Source of the DNA: an uncultured Sphingorhabdus sp.
GTDB taxonomy: Bacteria > Pseudomonadota > Alphaproteobacteria > Sphingomonadales > Sphingomonadaceae
Direction of reading: 5' to 3'
Assembly: GCF_937872355.1 (NCBI RefSeq)
Contig: NZ_CALMSV010000074.1
Coordinates: 1 to 33,794, forward strand
DNA length: 33,794 bases
Part shown: piece after piece, positions 20,549 through 29,996 of the stretch
Position numbering within the stretch: position 1 is the stretch's first letter
How the letters are laid out: each line of letters begins with the position of its first letter
The notes under the pieces: model-generated
What the model was told of the DNA's origin: nothing
Databases searched by the model: none
Seen by the model: only the letters and a program-made list of their open reading frames with translations
Translations under genes and position numbers: made by a program

Positions 20549-23185
20549 TTATTCATTCAAATTCGGCCGTAAATATTGCCGTGCCTTGTCGAGCTCCAGC
20601 CCGCGCCGTGCGGCATAGTCCGCGACCTGATCTTCGCCGATCCGCGCGACACCGAAATATTCACTTTGCGGGTGGCCGAAATAGAATCCACTGACCGCTG
20701 CGGTCGGCAGCATCGCGAAGCTCTCGGTTAGCGTTATTCCCGTGCGGTGGGTGGCGTCGAGCAGGCCGAACAGCACCGGTTTCAGACTGTGGTCGGGGCA
20801 GGCAGGATAACCGGGGGCAGGGCGGATGCCGCGATATTGTTCGCGGATCAGCGCCTCGTTGGTCAGTTGTTCGTCGGGCGCATAGCCCCACAGTTCCTTG
20901 CGCACATGTTCGTGCATCCGCTCGGCAAAGGCTTCTGCCAGACGGTCGGCTAACGCCTTCAGCATGATGTCCGAATAATCGTCGATATGCGCCTTGAACT
21001 CGGCGAGTTTGGTGCCGATGCCGTGGCCGGTGGTGACGGCAAAGCCGCCGATCCAGTCGCCATCGGGGCTGATGAAATCGGCCAGGCACATATTGGCGCG
21101 ACCTTCGCGCTTCGCCACCTGCTGGCGCAGGAAGGGCAGGCGGACATGCTCTTCGTTTTCCAGATAGATGACCACATCGTCACCTTCGCGCGCGCAAGGC
21201 CATAGCCCCGCCACGCCACGGGCGCGCAGCCATTTCTCGCTAACAATCTTGTCGAGCATCGTTTGAGCATCAGCAAACAGGTGTCGCGCGCTTTCGCCGA
21301 CCACCTCGTCGTCAAGGATTGCCGGATAATTGCCGTGCAATTCCCAGGCGCGGAAGAACGGCGTCCAGTCGATATAGTCGCGCAGATCCCCAAGCGGCCA
21401 ATCATCATAGACATGGACGCCGGGCTGTTTCGGTGCCGGCGGCTTCAGGCTTTCGTCGATTTCAAAGGCATTGGCGCGCGCCTCTTCGAGCGTCGCCAGC
21501 GGCTTGGCGGTTTTGCCTGATCGGGCGTCGCGAATATGGCCATATTCGGAGCGGGTATCCGCCACAAATTTCTCGGCAAGCGTATCGCTGACCAAGGTGG
21601 AGGCCACACCGACCGCCCGGCTGGCATCGAGCACATGAACGGTCGGCCCAGAATAGCCCGGCTCGTGGCGCCCCGGGGTGGCTTTTTTTGACGTCGGGGC
21701 CCCGCCGATGAGCAGCGGCATCGTCATCCCCGCGCGCTGCATTTCTTCAGCCACAGTCACCATTTCGTCGAGGCTGGGGGTGATCAGGCCCGAAAGCCCG
21801 ATCATGTCGGCGTCATTTTCGACCGCACTTTTGAGGATTTCCTGCCATGGCACCATGACGCCAAGGTCGATGACTTCAAAGCCGTTGCACTGCAGCACCA
21901 CGCCGACGATATTCTTGCCAATATCGTGGACGTCACCCTTGACGGTGGCCATGATGATCCGGCCCTTGCCCTTGCTGTTTTCGTCTTTCTCGGCCTCGAT
22001 ATAGGGGAAGAGGTGGGCAACGGCCTTTTTCATCACGCGCGCGGATTTGACCACTTGGGGCAGGAACATCTTGCCGCTGCCGAACAGGTCACCGACGACA
22101 TTCATGCCGTCCATCAGCGGGCCTTCGATCACCTCGATCGGGCGTCCGCTGCGTTCCTTGATCGCGAGGCGCGCTTCCTCGGTATCCTCGACGATATGCG
22201 CGTCGATGCCCTTGACCAGCGCATGTTCAATGCGGCGCTCGACGTTCCAGCCGCGCCATTCGGCGGCGGCTTTCTCCTGCGCGGCGTCGGTGCCCTTGTA
22301 CCGTTCGGCGAGTGCGATTAGTCGCTCGGTCGCGTCAGGGTCTTTATTCAGTATCACATCTTCGCAGGCGGTGCGCAGTTCGGGATCGATCGTGTCATAG
22401 ACATCAAGCTGCCCGGCATTGACGATCGCCATGTCAAGCCCGGCGGGGATCGCATGATACAGGAATATGCTGTGCATCGCACGGCGCACGGGTTCGTTGC
22501 CACGGAAACTGAAGGAAAGGTTCGAAAGGCCGCCCGAATAATGCGCATGCGGGCACAGCACGCGCAGTTCCTTGACCGCCTCGATAAAGTCGACACCGTA
22601 ATTATTATGCTCTTCGATACCTGTCGCGACCGCGAAGATATTGGGGTCGAAGATGATATCCTCGGGCGGGAAACCGATACCGACCAGCAGATCATAGGCG
22701 CGCTTGCAGATCGCAACCTTGCGCTCTTTGGTGTCGGCCTGCCCGGTTTCGTCGAACGCCATGACGACAACGGCGGCCCCATAGGCCATGCACAGGCGAG
22801 CGTGATGCAGAAAGGCTTCCTCGCCTTCCTTCATCGAAATCGAATTGACCACGGGCTTGCCCGAAACGCATTTCAGCCCGGCCTCGATCACGCTCCATTT
22901 GGAACTGTCGATCATCACCGGCACGCGCGCGATATCGGGTTCGGCGGCGATGCGTTTGAGGAAAGTCGTCATGGCGAGCTCGGCGTCGAGCAGGCCTTCG
23001 TCCATGTTGACGTCGATAATCTGCGCGCCATTTTCGACCTGATCGCGCGCGACCTCAACCGCGGCTTCATAGTCGGCGGCGAGGATCAGTTTCTTGAACT
23101 TGGCCGATCCGGTGACGTTGGTACGCTCGCCGATGTTGACGAAGGAGGAGCCTGTGGGGCGGGTGGTATTGGCGGTCTGGTTCAT
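20549..23185 (-). CDS. metH: Methionine synthase, C-terminal subunit (pterin, B12 and reactivation domains)
   Basis: An 878-residue protein equal to the C-terminal two thirds of E. coli MetH. Its domains in order are methyltetrahydrofolate-binding ([13 protein letters not shown], about 14-275), the cobalamin cap (about 300-395), the cobalamin-binding Rossmann domain with DVHDIGKN (axial-ligand H420), and the AdoMet reactivation domain (about 570-870). With the separate N-terminal subunit it transfers methyl from methyl-THF via cobalamin to homocysteine. ATG 23185 is chosen over ATG 23206 because the latter lies in a palindromic repeat and adds no homology. It is last in the ArsR-metF-metH-metH operon, 126 bp after the N-terminal half. 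Split MetH is, as I recall, usual in this order, not a frameshift. Confidence 0.93.
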
Positions 23186-23204
23186 TGTCACTCTAATCAC
23201 TGTC

Positions 23205-23224
23205 ATTCCCGCGAAAGCGGGAAT
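23205..23224. repeat. Dispersed palindromic repeat (ATTCCCGC type) between metH halves
   Basis: ATTCCCGC and GCGGGAAT form an 8-bp stem with a GAAA loop, embedded in the string GTCATTCCCGCGAAAGC, which I recall as a common intergenic repeat in sphingomonads. It lies 20 bases upstream of the metH C-half start. Confidence 0.75.
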
Positions 23225-23311: not shown

Positions 23312-24358
23312 TCAAGCCGCCATCACAAAAGGCTCCAGCCCGGCGAGCCGCGTCACCACTGGCGCGCTCGGCACCTGCCTCGGCGCTCGGTCGGCAACCG
23401 CCTTGGCAATCGCTGCGATATGCGCTGGCGTGGTGCCGCAGCATCCGCCGACGACATTCACCAGTCCTTCGTCGAGCCATTGCTCGATCAGCTTTGCGGT
23501 CTGCTCGGGCAATTCGTCATATTGGCCAAGCTCGTTGGGCAGGCCGGCATTGGGATAGGCCATCACCAGTGCATCCGCATTTTTGGCGAGTTCGGACAGA
23601 TAGGGGCGCAGCAGGTCTGCCCCGAACGAGCAGTTCAAACCGATGGTCAGCGGCTTAACATGGCGGATGGTGTTCCAGAAACCCTGCACGGTATGGCCAG
23701 ACAGGTTGCGGCCCGCCATGTCGGTGATCGTCATGCTGATCATCAGCGGTACATCGCGACCGCTTGCCGCCGCGGCCTCCTGCGCTGCCATTGCTGCGCA
23801 TTTGGCGTTGAGCGTGTCGAAAATCGTTTCGATCAGCAGAAAGTCGACCCCGCCTTCGATCAGCGCATCGCATTGTTCGCGATAGTCGGCCTTCAGCGTG
23901 TCGAAATCGACCTCGCGATAGCCGGGGTCGTTGACATCGGGCGATAATGACAGCGTTTTGTTGGTCGGGCCGATGGAGCCTGCGACGAAACGCTTGAGAC
24001 CATCCTTCGCCTCGGCCTTGTCGGCGCAGGCGCGAGCGAGCTTGGCGCTTTCGACATTGATGTGCCGAACCAGATGCTCGCAACCATAGTCGGCCATCGC
24101 GACACGGGTGGAGCTGAAGGTGTTGGTTTCGATCATATCCGCGCCCGCCTCCAGATAGGCATCGTGGATCGCGCCGATGATGTCGGGCCGGGTGATCGAG
24201 AGCAGATCGTTATTGCCCTTCTGGTCCTTCGCCAGATCAAGGTCGCCGCGATAATCGGCTTCCTCCAGCTTGTAGCGCTGGATTGATGTGCCATATCCGC
24301 CGTCGAACACAAGGATGCGTTCCTTGCAGCGGTGGTTGAACTCTTCGCGGGCGCTCAT
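23312..24358 (-). CDS. metH: Methionine synthase, N-terminal subunit (homocysteine-binding domain)
   Basis: A 348-residue TIM-barrel homocysteine S-methyltransferase domain, the N-terminal third of MetH. It starts at MSAREEF, overlapping the metF stop by 4 bp (ATGA at 24355-24358); the open frame further upstream to 24568 lies inside metF. FDGGYGTSIQ, ETNTFSSTR and GSIGPTNK are family segments. The zinc ligands are C243 in LNCSFGAD and the pair C306-C307 in VGGCCGTTP, so the metal site is complete. It needs the downstream cobalamin subunit to work with methyl-THF. An alternative use, as a stand-alone S-methylmethionine:homocysteine methyltransferase, is unlikely given the partner gene. Confidence 0.92.
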   Translation of the reverse strand: MSAREEFNHRCKERILVFDGGYGTSIQRYKLEEADYRGDLDLAKDQKGNNDLLSITRPDIIGAIHDAYLEAGADMIETNTFSSTRVAMADYGCEHLVRHINVESAKLARACADKAEAKDGLKRFVAGSIGPTNKTLSLSPDVNDPGYREVDFDTLKADYREQCDALIEGGVDFLLIETIFDTLNAKCAAMAAQEAAAASGRDVPLMISMTITDMAGRNLSGHTVQGFWNTIRHVKPLTIGLNCSFGADLLRPYLSELAKNADALVMAYPNAGLPNELGQYDELPEQTAKLIEQWLDEGLVNVVGGCCGTTPAHIAAIAKAVADRAPRQVPSAPVVTRLAGLEPFVMAA

Positions 24359-25296
24359 GCTGCGGCTTCCTTCGCGGTTTCGACCGGGCGTTTGCCGAGC
24401 AGGTGGCAGATGGCATAGCTGAGCTCTGCCCGGTTCAAGGTGTAGAAATGGAACTGGCGCACACCGCCTGCATATAGCCTGCGGCACATTTCGGCGGAGA
24501 TTGTGGCGGCGACAAGCTGGCGCGCCGAAGGGTGGTCGTCGAGCCCTTCGAACAGATGCGCCATCCATTCGGGGATTGCCGTGCCCGTCATTTTGGACAT
24601 GCGCTGGATCGCGGCGAAATTTGATACCGGCATGATGCCGGGAACGATCTCGGCTTCGACACCCGCTGCTGCCACGGCATCGCGGAAGCGGAAGAAGGTT
24701 TCGGGTTCAAAGAAGAATTGCGTGATTGCGCGGCTCGCGCCTGCATCCAGCTTGCGCTTCAGGAAGTCTATGTCTGATTGTGCGGTCGCGGCTTCGGGGT
24801 GGGTTTCGGGATAGGCGCTGACCGAAATCTCGAACGGGTGCAGCTTGCGCAGCCCTTCGACCAGCTCGGCCGCACTGGCATAACCCTGCGGGTGCGGTTC
24901 AAACTTGCCACCTGCATTGGGCGGATCTCCGCGCAACGCGACGATATGGCGCACGCCGGCCTCCCAATAGGCATGGGCGACCTCGGCAATCTCCTCACGC
25001 GTGGCATCGACACAGGTGAGGTGCGCCGCGGCGGGGATGTTCGTTTCCTTTGCAATGCGTGCGACCGTATTATGTGTCCGTTCGCGGGTAGAGCCGCCCG
25101 CGCCATAGGTCACCGAAACGAAGCGAGGGGCAAGCGGGGCGAGCGTCACGATCGAATCCCACAATTGCTCTTCCATCTTCTCGGTTTTGGGCGGGAAGAA
25201 TTCAAAGCTGATCTCGGCATCGCCCGGTAGCCCCGCAAAGAGTGAACTGGCGAGCGCGCGGCGCGATTCGGCCATCTGGTCGAGCGACAATATCAT
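24355..25296 (-). CDS. metF: Methylenetetrahydrofolate reductase
   Basis: A 313-residue FAD-containing TIM-barrel enzyme reducing 5,10-methylene-THF to 5-methyl-THF, the methyl donor used by MetH next door. The signature SFEFFPPKTEKMEEQLW holds the catalytic glutamate near residue 31. FVSVTYGAGGS, HLTCVDATREEI, LRGDPP and FFFEPETFFRF follow in family order, and the length is normal for bacterial MetF. Its ATG overlaps the stop of the ArsR-methyltransferase gene (25293-25296) and its stop overlaps the metH N-half start. The first three genes of the operon are therefore translationally linked. A second Met at residue 8 is a possible alternative start. Confidence 0.94.
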   Translation of the reverse strand: MILSLDQMAESRRALASSLFAGLPGDAEISFEFFPPKTEKMEEQLWDSIVTLAPLAPRFVSVTYGAGGSTRERTHNTVARIAKETNIPAAAHLTCVDATREEIAEVAHAYWEAGVRHIVALRGDPPNAGGKFEPHPQGYASAAELVEGLRKLHPFEISVSAYPETHPEAATAQSDIDFLKRKLDAGASRAITQFFFEPETFFRFRDAVAAAGVEAEIVPGIMPVSNFAAIQRMSKMTGTAIPEWMAHLFEGLDDHPSARQLVAATISAEMCRRLYAGGVRQFHFYTLNRAELSYAICHLLGKRPVETAKEAAA

Positions 25297-26273
25297 GCAA
25301 CTATCCTGAGTTTGGGAGATTCAATGGCACCATTGCCCCGCTGGCCGAGCCAGATTTTGACGGCGAGTTTGCCGCCCGCTAGCGTTTCGGTGCGCGCCGG
25401 TACGAGCCCGGTACCGGCAAAAGCCCGCGCCATGCTTTCATCGGTGAAGCCCAAGCGGGCATGGGCGTGGACGCTGCGCAGTTCTTCAAGATCATGGGCG
25501 GCGAAATCGACGACCAGCAATCGTCCTTCGACGGCCAATACGCGTGCCGCCTCTGCAATCGCCCGTTCGGGATGCTGGGCATAGTGCAGCACCTGATGGA
25601 AGAGGATGGTGTCGAAACTGCCGTCGGCGAACGGCAGGGTGTTGAAATCGCCGAGCACGATTTCCGTGTGCGCCTGCACCGTTGCGGCATCTTCCATCCC
25701 GCCCAGCTTGGCGCGTGCGAGCCGCAACATCTCCACACTGTTATCAAGCGCGACGAAGCGTTCGGCATCCCGCGCGAACAATTCGATCATGCGACCGGTG
25801 CCGGTGCCGATGTCGAGCACCCGGCCAACCGGCGCTTCACCCAGCAGCGCGCGCATGGCCGCCTCCACTTCCGCCTCGGCGATGTGGAGCGAGCGGATCT
25901 GGTCCCATTGTTCGGCATGGGCATCAAAATAGGCAGCTGCCATTTCGGTTCGCGCCGAGCGGACTTCTTGAAGTCGCGCCAGATCGCGCAGTACCGGTCG
26001 TGAATCCTCTGTCCCCGGCAGGCTGAACAGCGGCTCGATTGCAGGGTGCGACAACATAGGGCCCGGACGCAGGAAAACCCATGCCCCTTCCCGGCGGCGC
26101 TCCGCGATACCTGCTTCGTCCAAAATCTTGATGTGACGCGATACGCGCGGCTGGCTTTGGCCCAAAATCTGCACGACTTCGCTGACGGAAAGCTCCAACT
26201 GCCGTATCAACAGCGTGATTCGCATCCGCGTCGGATCGGCAAGCGCGCGCATTATGTTGAGCAAAGGCGTCAT
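25293..26273 (-). CDS. ArsR-family regulator fused to a SAM-dependent methyltransferase domain (SahR-like)
   Basis: A 326-residue protein. Residues ~1-95 are an ArsR winged helix (MRALADPTRMRITLLI, then SVSEVVQILGQSQPRVSRHIKIL as the recognition helix region). Residues ~130-300 are a class I methyltransferase fold with motif I VLDIGTGTGRMIELF and acidic VALDNS. No cysteine metal site typical of metal-sensing ArsR proteins is visible in the helix after SVSEV. SahR is described as an ArsR-family repressor of methionine-cycle genes sensing S-adenosylhomocysteine. Position at the head of metF-metH and an operator at its own promoter fit that role. Whether the methyltransferase domain is catalytic or only senses SAM/SAH is open. 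There is no Shine-Dalgarno sequence in front of ATG 26273. Confidence 0.85.
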   Translation of the reverse strand: MTPLLNIMRALADPTRMRITLLIRQLELSVSEVVQILGQSQPRVSRHIKILDEAGIAERRREGAWVFLRPGPMLSHPAIEPLFSLPGTEDSRPVLRDLARLQEVRSARTEMAAAYFDAHAEQWDQIRSLHIAEAEVEAAMRALLGEAPVGRVLDIGTGTGRMIELFARDAERFVALDNSVEMLRLARAKLGGMEDAATVQAHTEIVLGDFNTLPFADGSFDTILFHQVLHYAQHPERAIAEAARVLAVEGRLLVVDFAAHDLEELRSVHAHARLGFTDESMARAFAGTGLVPARTETLAGGKLAVKIWLGQRGNGAIESPKLRIVA

Positions 26274-26281
26274 CGGATTGG

Positions 26282-26310
26282 CATATAAAGAAATCTTTAT
26301 ATCATGTCAA
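26282..26310 (-). promoter_or_regulatory. Promoter of the ArsR-metF-metH operon
   Basis: On the minus strand a consensus -35 TTGACA (26305-26310) is followed after exactly 17 bases by TATATG (26282-26287). Only eight bases separate the -10 element from the ATG at 26273. Transcription would begin within a few bases of the start codon, giving a leaderless or near-leaderless mRNA, consistent with the absent ribosome-binding site. Confidence 0.65.
26283..26302. promoter_or_regulatory. Operator palindrome over the met-operon promoter (probable autoregulatory SahR-like site)
   Basis: ATATAAAGAAATCTTTATAT has 9-bp arms matching perfectly around a central AA. It covers the spacer and -10 element of the promoter, so a bound dimer would block RNA polymerase. 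The adjacent gene encodes an ArsR-family dimeric regulator, the natural candidate to bind it. The site assignment is an inference from symmetry and position. Confidence 0.7.
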
Positions 26311-26507: not shown

Positions 26508-26819
26508 ATGAAAAAGATTGCTGTTTCTCTCGTTCTCGCTTCTGCAATGGCTCTGGCTGCTTGCTCGGGCGCAGAAGAAGCTACCACTGAAGAAGCTGCT
26601 GCTGGTGCAGAAGAAGCTGCTGACGCAGCTGCTGCTGGCGCTGAAGCTGCTACCGACGCTGCTGCTGGTGCAGAAGCTGCTGCAACTGACGCAGCTGCTG
26701 CTGGTGCCGAAGCTGCTGAAGCTGGCAAAGAAGCTGCTGCTGCTGCTGGTGACGCCGCTGCAAAGGCTGGCGACGCTGCCGCTGCTGCTGGCGAAGCTGC
26801 AAAAGAAGCTACCAAGTAA
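26508..26819 (+). CDS. Small Ala-rich repeat lipoprotein
   Basis: A 103-residue lipoprotein. The signal peptide ends in the lipobox LAAC with lipidated C19; residue +2 is Ser, favouring the outer membrane. The 85-residue mature chain consists almost wholly of Ala, Glu, Asp, Gly, Lys and Thr. It is arranged as Gly-led units of 10-12 residues (GAEEAADAAAA, GAEAATDAAA and so on) and then 7-8-residue units (GDAAAKA, GDAAAAA), which predicts one long amphipathic helix. The start at 26508 has AGGGGGA eight bases upstream; the open frame to 26412 is leader. Alanine is coded mostly by GCT, unlike the GC-rich codons of neighbours, and a strong terminator follows. This suggests an abundant monocistronic product. 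An Lpp-like spacer or LEA-like stress protein is possible, but function is unknown. Confidence 0.8.
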   Translation: MKKIAVSLVLASAMALAACSGAEEATTEEAAAGAEEAADAAAAGAEAATDAAAGAEAAATDAAAAGAEAAEAGKEAAAAAGDAAAKAGDAAAAAGEAAKEATK

Positions 26820-27097: not shown

Positions 27098-28207
27098 TCA
27101 GCGATGGTTCGCGGCGACAGCCCGTGAAACCGCCTGCATCATCGCCATACGCGACGGAATGCCCGAAGTCGTACTCGCGATCATCACCACTACAGCATAG
27201 CGTGTGCCATCCGGCGCGGTCATGATTCCGATGTCGTTGTAACCGGTTGAAACCGGATCCAGTTCCTGTCCGGTACCGGTCTTGTGCCCGAAACGCCACC
27301 CGGGCGGGACACCTGCTTTCAAACGGTTCGGTCCGCTCTTGGTGCGCTCCATCATTGCCAGCAACAAGCGTGTCGAAGCGGGTGAAAGCAATTCACCTTT
27401 GGCCAGGCGGGCCAGCGCGCTGGCAATCGCATCAGGTGCAGCGCCATCTACCGGATCAGCCAGATAGGCATCCAGCGCCGCTTTGCGCCGTTCCAGGGGA
27501 ATTGCGGAGCGCGCCGTATAGAAACGTCTGCCAATGGAATAGTCCTGCTGCCAGCTCATCCCGGCAATCTGGCTTTGCATCAGCCGTTCGCCGGGACCGA
27601 AACGGATTTTCCCCAGCCGCTTGCGTTCGATGAAGTTGCGCACAGCTTCGGGCCCGCCTGCGGTACGTAGCAGGCTGTCATTCGCGGTATTGTCGCTGGC
27701 AGTAATCGCCTGCTCCAACAGGCTCAGAACTGTCTCTTCGATCTCTCCATTGGCAAGTACGCGATCCCGGATCGGTTGGTGGAAAACGGCGAGGTCCGAT
27801 GCTGTGATACGCACTTTCTGGTCAAGTCGAACGCGGCCATTGTCGATCTGATCGAGGATCGTCATTGCCACCCACATTTTGGAGACGCTTTGCTGTGGGA
27901 ACAGTTCGCCCAAGCGCTTTCCTGTTACCCAATCACCGTCAACCCTCTGCACCGCGATACCGGTGCGTCCGGGAAATTGCCGCCATGCGGTATCAATTTC
28001 GGCGATCAGCTGGTCAGGCACAGTCGCGCGAGCCAATTTTGCTGGCTCTGCCGGGCGAGGCGTTGGACGCTGCACAGATGGGGGGGCAGGCGGGGTTACG
28101 ATGATTCGCGGTTTGGACTGCGCCTGCGGCGGGACCTTTGCGGGTGCCGAAACGCAGCCACCAAGGCCCGCAAGCAGCAACAATATCAAAGCTGTTCTAG
28201 CAAACAT
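27098..28207 (-). CDS. Serine beta-lactamase/DD-peptidase-fold lipoprotein
   Basis: A 369-residue penicillin-interacting serine hydrolase. A lipoprotein signal (ILLLLAGLGGC, C18) is followed by a Pro-rich linker (about 25-58). The class A-like domain then shows the SxxK motif SVSK (S107, K110), the SDN triad at 171-173 and KTG at 309-311. Between SDN and KTG I cannot find the ExxLN omega-loop glutamate that deacylates penicillins in class A enzymes, so true beta-lactamase activity is doubtful. A peptidoglycan peptidase or related esterase is an alternative. The start at 28207 gives the signal peptide; the frame stays open to 28447 but that extension overlaps the divergent ATPase gene. It is anchored to a periplasm-facing membrane. 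Confidence 0.8.
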   Translation of the reverse strand: MFARTALILLLLAGLGGCVSAPAKVPPQAQSKPRIIVTPPAPPSVQRPTPRPAEPAKLARATVPDQLIAEIDTAWRQFPGRTGIAVQRVDGDWVTGKRLGELFPQQSVSKMWVAMTILDQIDNGRVRLDQKVRITASDLAVFHQPIRDRVLANGEIEETVLSLLEQAITASDNTANDSLLRTAGGPEAVRNFIERKRLGKIRFGPGERLMQSQIAGMSWQQDYSIGRRFYTARSAIPLERRKAALDAYLADPVDGAAPDAIASALARLAKGELLSPASTRLLLAMMERTKSGPNRLKAGVPPGWRFGHKTGTGQELDPVSTGYNDIGIMTAPDGTRYAVVVMIASTTSGIPSRMAMMQAVSRAVAANHR

Positions 28208-28424
28208 CCACACACCATAGCCCACGAAAATTTTACAAAGCATGACTAGCGGGCAAAGCAGCAGCGGAAAAGCGCTCCAATCAAGCTTTGCGGCCAGTTG
28301 ACTCGACTCATCCGACAAAGCGTTGCCGCATAAATCCAAGGTTATAGGAGTTGATATTACTTGACCTGAACGGGTTGGCGTAGTTGTCTTCATGCAATCG
28401 AAATCATTCACGGGAGCATGTTCA

Positions 28425-29996
28425 ATGTCCGAAGAAGGCCTTTTCATCGGTTCGACAGCCGAAGGCGCACGTCAGGCTATCAACTGGAAAAGAGCCAACC
28501 GGCACGGACTGATCGCAGGCGCAACCGGCACCGGTAAAACCATCACTTTGCAGGTGATGGCAGAGGGCTTTTCGCGCAATGGCGTTCCGGTCTTTGTTTC
28601 CGACGTGAAGGGCGACCTTGCCGGTATGGCAATGGCGGGTGCCGCAACGCAAAAGAACCACGAAAATTTCGTCAACCGCGCAAAAGAGATAGGCGACAGC
28701 GAATGGGTCTATTCGGACAATCCGGTGCAATTCTGGGATCTGTTCGGCGAAAATGGCCATCCGGTGCGGACCACAGTTTCCGAAATGGGGCCGCTGATGC
28801 TTTCGCGGCTGATGGATCTGAACGAGGTTCAGGAAGGCGTGCTGACGATCGCCTTCCATGTTGCCGACAAGGATGGGCTGCTGCTGCTCGACCCCGACGA
28901 TTTGCAGGCGATGCTGGTTAACATCGCCGAACGTGCCGAAGAGATGACCACCACTTATGGTAATGTGTCCAAGCAGAGCGTCGGTTCTATCCAGCGTTCG
29001 CTGCTGCAACTGCGTTCACAGGGCGGCGACCGGTTCTTCGGCGAGCCTGCGCTCGATCTGGATGACTTTATTGCCTGTGACGACAAGGGGCGCGGGGTCA
29101 TCAACATCCTGTCCGCTGAAAAGCTGATGCAGAGCCCCAAGCTCTATTCAACCTTTCTGCTTTGGCTGCTTTCCGAACTGTTTGAAACGCTTCCCGAAAT
29201 TGGCGATCCCGACAAGCCAAAGCTGGTGTTCTTCTTTGACGAGGCGCATCTGCTGTTCAGCGACGCGCCGAAAGCACTGGTCGAGAAGATCGAACAGGTT
29301 GTCCGCCTGATCCGCTCGAAAGGTGTCGGCGTCTATTTCATCACGCAGAACCCGATCGATATTCCTGATACCGTGGCGGGGCAGCTTAACAATCGGGTGC
29401 AGCACAAGCTGAACGCCTTCACCCCGCGTGATCAGGCAGCGGTCAAATCAGCAGCGGAGACCTTCCGCGCCAATCCTGGCGTCGATGTGACCACCGCGAT
29501 CACCGAGTTGAAGGTTGGCGAAGCACTTGTCTCGGTGCTGCAAGCAGATGGTTCGCCGACGCCGGTAGAACGCACGCTGATCAAGCCGCCCGCATCGCGC
29601 ACAGGCCCGCTCGACGCCAAGGAGCGGGGCGTGATGATCGCGACCGACGCGATTGGCGACAAATATGACGATCTGATTGACCGCGAATCTGCTGAGGAAA
29701 TTCTGATGGCCAAGGGCGCCCAAGCCGCCGCTGCCGCAGAGGCGGCAGAAGCCGCCGAGGAACAGGCCAAGGCCGATGCGATTGCTGCCAAGGAGCAGGC
29801 AAAACAGGAAGCAGCTGCAGCCAAAGAGGCTGCCCGCGAAGCCGCGCGTCAGGCGCGTGAGGCGGCCAAGCCCAGCATGGCTGAGAAGATGGTGCAATCG
29901 GCCGCACGGTCAGCGGCGACCTCGGTCGGGCGCCAGCTGGCAGGCAGTTTCGGCAAATCCTTGGTACGCGGAATTTTGGGCAGCCTGTTCAAATAG
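28425..29996 (+). CDS. yjgR: HerA-like ATPase, DUF853/YjgR family
   Basis: A 523-residue cytoplasmic P-loop ATPase of the FtsK/HerA superfamily. Walker A GATGTGKT is at 32-39 and Walker [10 protein letters not shown] at about 267-274 (D272, E273). A sensor-like [12 protein letters not shown] and [13 protein letters not shown] follow. The C-terminal ~90 residues are an Ala/Lys/Glu-rich coiled coil, then a short glycine-containing tail. Length and motif order match E. coli YjgR, whose role is not established. ATG 28425 has GGGAG eight bases upstream; ATG 28392 and ATG 28418 are less well placed. It diverges from the beta-lactamase-fold gene. It is unrelated in detail to the other HerA-type gene at 16275, lacking the HAS barrel and Pro/Gln tail. 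Confidence 0.9.

Follow-up and report, generated by a model that had tools for sequence, protein, structure and literature searches.

A SahR-type operator placed inside a likely leaderless sahR promoter at the head of a metF–metH operon in Sphingorhabdus

How does a regulator of methionine metabolism control its own gene when operator, promoter and start codon share about 40 bp of DNA? The question is raised by a locus of an uncultured Sphingorhabdus sp. (Sphingomonadaceae; assembly GCF_937872355.1, contig NZ_CALMSV010000074.1), where positions 1 to 33,794 were analysed and are referred to here as the window. The best explanation, which we hold with considerable though not complete confidence, is a SahR autoregulatory promoter that would be released by S-adenosylhomocysteine (SAH) and give rise to a leaderless sahR message. 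The regulator and its operator are already known, since the sites in this genome correspond to the published SahR core regulon, which has been reported for Sphingomonadales. With the regulon known, the gain lies in the architecture: the novelty is the geometry of operator, promoter and start codon, a layout kept in most of the relatives examined.

The sahR–metF–metH operon and its regulon

The predicted fusion of an ArsR-type regulator with a methyltransferase is borne out by Pfam matches (PF01022, 1.5e-11; PF08241, 2.2e-22) to the helix-turn-helix (HTH) and class I SAM-methyltransferase domains of the sahR product (Table 1), whose reading frame opens at the first start codon downstream of a stop. 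Across 14 aligned relatives, the SAM-pocket motif DIGTGTGRM hardly varies, and the closest named relatives found belong to the Sphingomonadaceae (Sphingorhabdus, Sphingopyxis and MAGs; 62–65% identity). The gene order sahR–metF–metH1–metH2, with metF and both metH halves, is likewise as anticipated. The metF start and the sahR stop overlap (ATGA), and an AGGA ends 7 nt ahead of the metF start. The longest metH1 frame opens at 24568, but homology begins at its residue 71; the true start is therefore likely to be ATG 24358, which overlaps the metF stop in another ATGA. Judged by eye, purine stretches resembling a Shine-Dalgarno (SD) sequence precede metF and metH1, unlike sahR. Riboswitch control of the operon was rejected, as an Rfam scan of the window gave no family at the gathering score and hence no SAM/SAH riboswitch ahead of the operon.

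Table 1. Features of the sahR promoter region and the operon that it heads (window coordinates).
Feature	Position	Strand	Remark
-35 element TTGACA	26310-26305	minus	TTGAC at same offset in 29/29 genus loci
Spacer, 17 nt	26304-26288	minus	
-10 element TATATG	26287-26282	minus	5/6 bases inside downstream operator arm
8 nt from -10 to ATG	26281-26274	minus	without Shine-Dalgarno
sahR start codon ATG	26273-26271	minus	
SahR-type operator, 20-bp perfect palindrome	26283-26302	none	ATATAAAGA-NN-TCTTTATAT
sahR	25293-26273	minus	ArsR HTH (residues about 6-69) and class I SAM methyltransferase domain (about 150-260); 326 aa, no cysteine
metF, methylenetetrahydrofolate reductase	24355-25296	minus	PF02219 6.1e-98
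metH1, homocysteine-methyltransferase part of methionine synthase	23312-24358	minus	likely start ATG 24358
metH2, pterin-binding, B12-binding and activation part of methionine synthase	20549-23206	minus	105 nt after metH1

The genome scan for the palindrome that the original prediction had proposed finds it, in this genome (3.41 Mb, 98% complete), at three sites with at most 3 mismatches: before sahR, which heads metF–metH, before the SAH hydrolase gene ahcY (G000:C245:2284-2303, locus L002) and before the SAM synthetase gene metK (G000:C36:3577-3596, locus L003). A reversed control pattern gave no match in the same 3.41 Mb at the same limit. The core regulon sahR, ahcY, metH, metF and metK is thus fully present among the three sites. 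In the main-text passages of Leyn et al. (2014, PMC4239095), SahR of Alphaproteobacteria is described with a 20-bp palindrome, autoregulation and this core regulon, in 7/7 genomes of the Sphingomonadales; the palindrome, autoregulation and the targets metF, metH, ahcY and metK are common to that regulon and the one predicted in this genome. The fusion domains, the operator and the ahcY and metK sites all agree with the published SahR, and the case for the suggested identity is strong. An analysis of promoter register and leader at SahR sites is given here; none appears in those main-text passages (PMC4239095).

Regulator and operator also occur together across the family, sampled as 59 genomes with one per genus, this one counted. 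At least one operator site is found in 54/59 genomes and a strong SahR match (E at most 1e-36) in 54/59, three of these matches being broken (one internal stop in G052; two pieces each in G007 and G056). At least one operator is present in 52/54 genomes with a strong SahR match vs 2/5 without, and one of the latter two is a 380-contig assembly with its site at a contig edge. Three genomes (G008, G014 and G026) have neither a strong SahR match nor an operator at up to 3 mismatches while ahcY and metK are present, and the SahR regulon looks to have been lost there as a whole.

Two relatives have been studied experimentally. Brevundimonas sp. M20 carries the operon ArsR-M/metRFHH, composed of arsR-M, metF, HMT-1 and metH (Li et al. 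2023, PMC10190100), where, as in the window, an ArsR-methyltransferase fusion stands ahead of metF and two pieces of methionine synthase. The fusion protein gave a gel shift on the promoter of its own met operon, which it binds at a palindrome containing CTTTATAT, like the window operator (PMC10190100). In Ensifer aridi, as in this genome, operators are predicted before sahR, ahcY, metH and metK, and also before bhmT; the promoter activity of sahR was highest in a sahR deletion, which supports autoregulation, and the word "leaderless" is absent from the main text (PMC8877191). Autoregulation and binding to the own promoter are thus supported in relatives.

Spacing of operator and start codon

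The elements of the original prediction, namely TTGACA, a 17-bp spacing, TATATG, a 20-bp palindrome with 9-bp arms and eight bases to the ATG, are found exactly so on the minus strand. The operator arms (9 nt each, 100% complementary, 2 nt in the centre; 26302-26283) overlay 15 of the 17 spacer bases and five of the six -10 bases, and, as had been noted, the 8 nt preceding the sahR ATG (26281-26274) contain no SD-like motif. With up to 3 mismatches allowed, the window contains the palindrome once and 100 dinucleotide shuffles do not contain it at all. A generic promoter scanner left the minus-strand sahR promoter out of its list because it accepts only T as the final base of the -10; what it listed was a promoter-like site on the plus strand of the same palindrome (TTGGCA/TATCAT, 26278-26305, 10 of 12), facing a divergent lipoprotein-like gene. 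Within the genus, the minus-strand TTGAC never changes, while the plus-strand -35 TTGGCA falls in an unconserved stretch.

Within the genus, 40/41 genomes match; the 30 best loci were fetched, this one included, and one was dropped as its contig ends before the operator, leaving 29. TTGAC and both operator arms are free of any mismatch in all 29, in keeping with the predicted position of the operator over spacer and -10 element. The operator centre varies (identity 0.67), and the -10 element reads TATATG in 19 loci, TATATC in 9 and TATATA in 1. The 9 nt past the operator show a pairwise identity of 0.35 across 28 distinct loci, and no SD-like 4-mer is found in any of the 29 gaps. The distance from operator to start is 9 nt in 27/29 loci and 10 nt in 2/29, by a script that allowed 9 or 10 nt only; in an unrestricted list of starts, the first in-frame start lies at 9 or 10 in 28/29 and at 6, followed by an ATG at 9, in one. 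If the spacing between -10 and start codon were constrained, a nearly fixed gap length with a free sequence would be the expected outcome.

The tight spacing is also conserved in the family. Among 54 sahR loci, one per genus and including that of the window, 51 have the operator at up to 4 mismatches and three lack it; with the start codon taken as the one that best fits the protein alignment, the gap is 5–13 nt in 48 of the 51. The remaining three have gaps of 30 nt (L014), 111 nt and 166 nt (L022); the 111-nt locus has an in-frame ATG at 9 nt too, and the long gaps of L014 and L022 carry an SD-like motif. At the expected offset, a TTGACA-like -35 (at least 5 of 6) is seen in 33/51 loci, with weaker scores at the tested offsets of 4 of 6 in 1, 3 of 6 in 12 and 2 of 6 in 5, and a bare TTG stands at -9 to -6 in 45/51. 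The paired TA of the -10 belongs to the operator and so adds no evidence at sahR. A second sample took, by similarity, the best 80 of 577 named loci, partly from the same genomes as the family sample; the operator is present in 80/80 and the gap is 7–13 nt in 74/80. These best 80 include Sphingomonas, Sphingobium, Sphingopyxis, Novosphingobium, Erythrobacter, two Acidocella MAGs and Gluconobacter. Their clearest exceptions are both Zymomonas loci (L194 and L200), with the operator 166 nt ahead of sahR and an SD-like motif.

Across the class, 94/190 genomes have a SahR protein at an E value of at most 1e-40, and 93 of the 95 matches listed run from profile position 2–5 to 289–310 of 311. Setting aside three matches from family members, a fragment at a contig edge and a second, partial hit left 90 loci outside the family, of which 83 carry the operator at up to 5 mismatches, a looser limit than inside the family. 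A gap of at most 13 nt is found in 13 of these 83 vs 48/51 inside the family (Fisher p = 1.3e-20, inflated by shared ancestry). The choice of start is less certain there than inside the family; a hand count of any in-frame start 5–13 nt past the operator gives 21/83. The family f29 parallels the layout, with TTGACA and gaps of 7–8 in two genomes. On these counts, the tight sahR layout is typical of the family; elsewhere in the sample it is uncommon, though parallels exist. Two pattern searches were set aside: the exact promoter, operator and ATG pattern matched 5 of 289 class genomes, which was too strict, and was swapped for protein-anchored upstream regions, and a loose palindrome search matched 193 of 196 genomes of the order, with equally high controls in many, and was dropped as uninformative.

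A likely leaderless message and its signal

The arrangement suggests a simple switch. A SahR dimer on the 20-bp palindrome would cover the -10 box together with the spacer ahead of it and exclude RNA polymerase, turning sahR–metF–metH1–metH2 off. When SAH rises, it would bind the fused methyltransferase-like domain, SahR would leave, and the operon, ahcY and metK would be transcribed. Because the -10 and the ATG are only 8 nt apart, transcription is predicted to start at about 26276-26274, with a leader of 0–3 nt, so that sahR would be read from a leaderless message, defined as one with a 5' UTR of 0–9 nt (PMC9320726). Translation of metF and metH1 would follow through the ATGA overlaps and their own SD-like sequences. 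A short gap alone is no proof of a leaderless message, as some metK sites lie 8–11 nt from the start with promoter-like boxes upstream; at sahR, it is the short gap combined with the promoter boxes that appears to do the work. The metK register, which would place the sahR promoter further away, fits 0/51 family sahR sites. The comparative evidence is good, and a leaderless sahR message is likely. Among the titles and abstract beginnings listed from the open-licence literature on SahR, leaderless messages and repressor operators, none seems to describe this sahR layout. The sahR unit, with its nearly fixed spacing and free sequence before the start, offers a tidy natural example of a metabolic operon that would regulate itself from a likely leaderless message, and the prediction can be checked against public maps of transcription starts.

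We infer SAH as the ligand from the literature. A response to SAM instead, as corepressor or inducer, is fairly unlikely. It would find a precedent in SamR of the Xanthomonadales, which resembles SahR, represses methionine genes and has been proposed to respond to SAM (PMC4239095), and metK is among the targets in this genome; however, so is ahcY, whose product removes SAH. SamR also differs in its 24-bp motif, and SAM-cycle genes other than metK lie outside its regulons in the main-text passages of Leyn et al. (PMC4239095).

A quite improbable alternative keeps SahR autoregulation and gives the working message a leader, either from a second, upstream promoter or by a start at an internal ATG. 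The window has a second in-frame ATG 30 nt past the operator, and by peptides so do most genus loci, where residue 8 is Met as in the window, with Thr or Leu in two of 29. The internal Met is therefore not invariant in the genus; several family loci have no second start nearby, and no SD is seen before the internal ATG in the window. Across codons 2–7, identities in the genus are 0.71/0.78/0.52 at codon positions 1/2/3 and the changes are largely synonymous; coding thus appears to begin at the first start, before the internal ATG, and translation from the latter is disfavoured. Classical leaderless translation disfavours GTG starts, and the GTG in 3/29 genus loci at the first position therefore counts against the leaderless reading. 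The long gaps with an SD-like motif in L014 and L022, two among the 54 family loci, and the 166-nt distance at both Zymomonas loci also point to led messages.

It is highly improbable that the fusion protein acts as an ArsR-M, which would methylate arsenite, repress in response to arsenic and tie arsenic detoxification to methionine synthesis. The matching Brevundimonas operon was read in this way, as an arsenic enzyme and regulator with arsenite methylation activity that raised arsenite resistance in E. coli, and a cysteine, C134, was also invoked (Li et al. 2023, PMC10190100). The HTH of the window protein passes the general NCBIfam cut-off for the metalloregulator ArsR/SmtB family (71.7 vs 55); the best arsenite-methyltransferase NCBIfam match reaches 47.4 vs a cut-off of 240. 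Arsenite sensors and ArsM enzymes bind arsenic via cysteines. The window protein has 0 Cys in 326 residues and does not fit the Brevundimonas reading; in the 14-member alignment, Cys reaches at most 6/14 in any column. An arsenic sensor therefore seems unlikely, and the regulon of sahR, ahcY and metK speaks against it too: beyond sahR, the operator precedes only ahcY and metK in this genome at up to 3 mismatches. The comparison also suggests that the Brevundimonas "ArsR-M" is worth re-examining as a SahR.

Promoter registers at ahcY and metK, and neighbouring features

The same operator takes other positions at the other targets, which were compared in the first 30 loci and in 29 held-out, less similar loci. 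At ahcY, the first set has 25 sites with gaps of 59–127 nt and an SD-like motif in 24/25. TTG stands at +19 to +21 in 23/25 sites, against a mean of 0.8 and a maximum of 4 in background windows, and 21 of the sites also have TA at promoter spacing; among the held-out loci, the operator is present in 24, TTG in 20 and TTG with TA in 18. The sahR register (TTG plus TA) is seen at 0/25 ahcY sites of the first set and 2/24 held-out. The operator of ahcY would thus abut the -35 and leave a normal leader, while that of sahR fills the spacer. The register of metK is mixed. One arrangement fits 15/23 sites in the first 30 loci and 3/26 held-out; as it failed the held-out test, no single metK register is claimed. 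Gaps of 8–11 nt with promoter-like boxes upstream occur in 6/23 metK sites of the first 30 loci, and the held-out sites show other spacings by eye (post hoc, uncounted).

A tentative idea, possible but not favoured, is that one operator is used in different fixed registers within the family: inside the leaderless promoter of sahR, upstream of the -35 of ahcY, and variably at metK. With sahR moved to leaderless translation, the sensor and methionine synthesis would initiate by another route than the SAH-removing enzyme and may differ from it in their response to the shared signal and to the state of the ribosomes. The sahR and ahcY registers make it testable how the position of an operator sets the response of each gene.

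Around the operon, the divergent neighbour of sahR (26508-26819, plus strand) encodes a small, very Ala/Glu-rich, lipoprotein-like protein of 103 aa that has no Pfam match at E 0.001. Further along (27098-28447, minus strand) lies a class A beta-lactamase-like protein with about 150 additional N-terminal residues, whose score of 193.5 is just under the NCBIfam class A cut-off of 200. The 105-nt gap between metH1 and metH2 holds a REP-like palindromic repeat, ATTCCCGCTTTCGCGGGAATGACA (23201-23224), which, with up to 3 mismatches allowed, is found at 14 places in this genome, among them oppositely oriented copies about 85 nt apart on two contigs.
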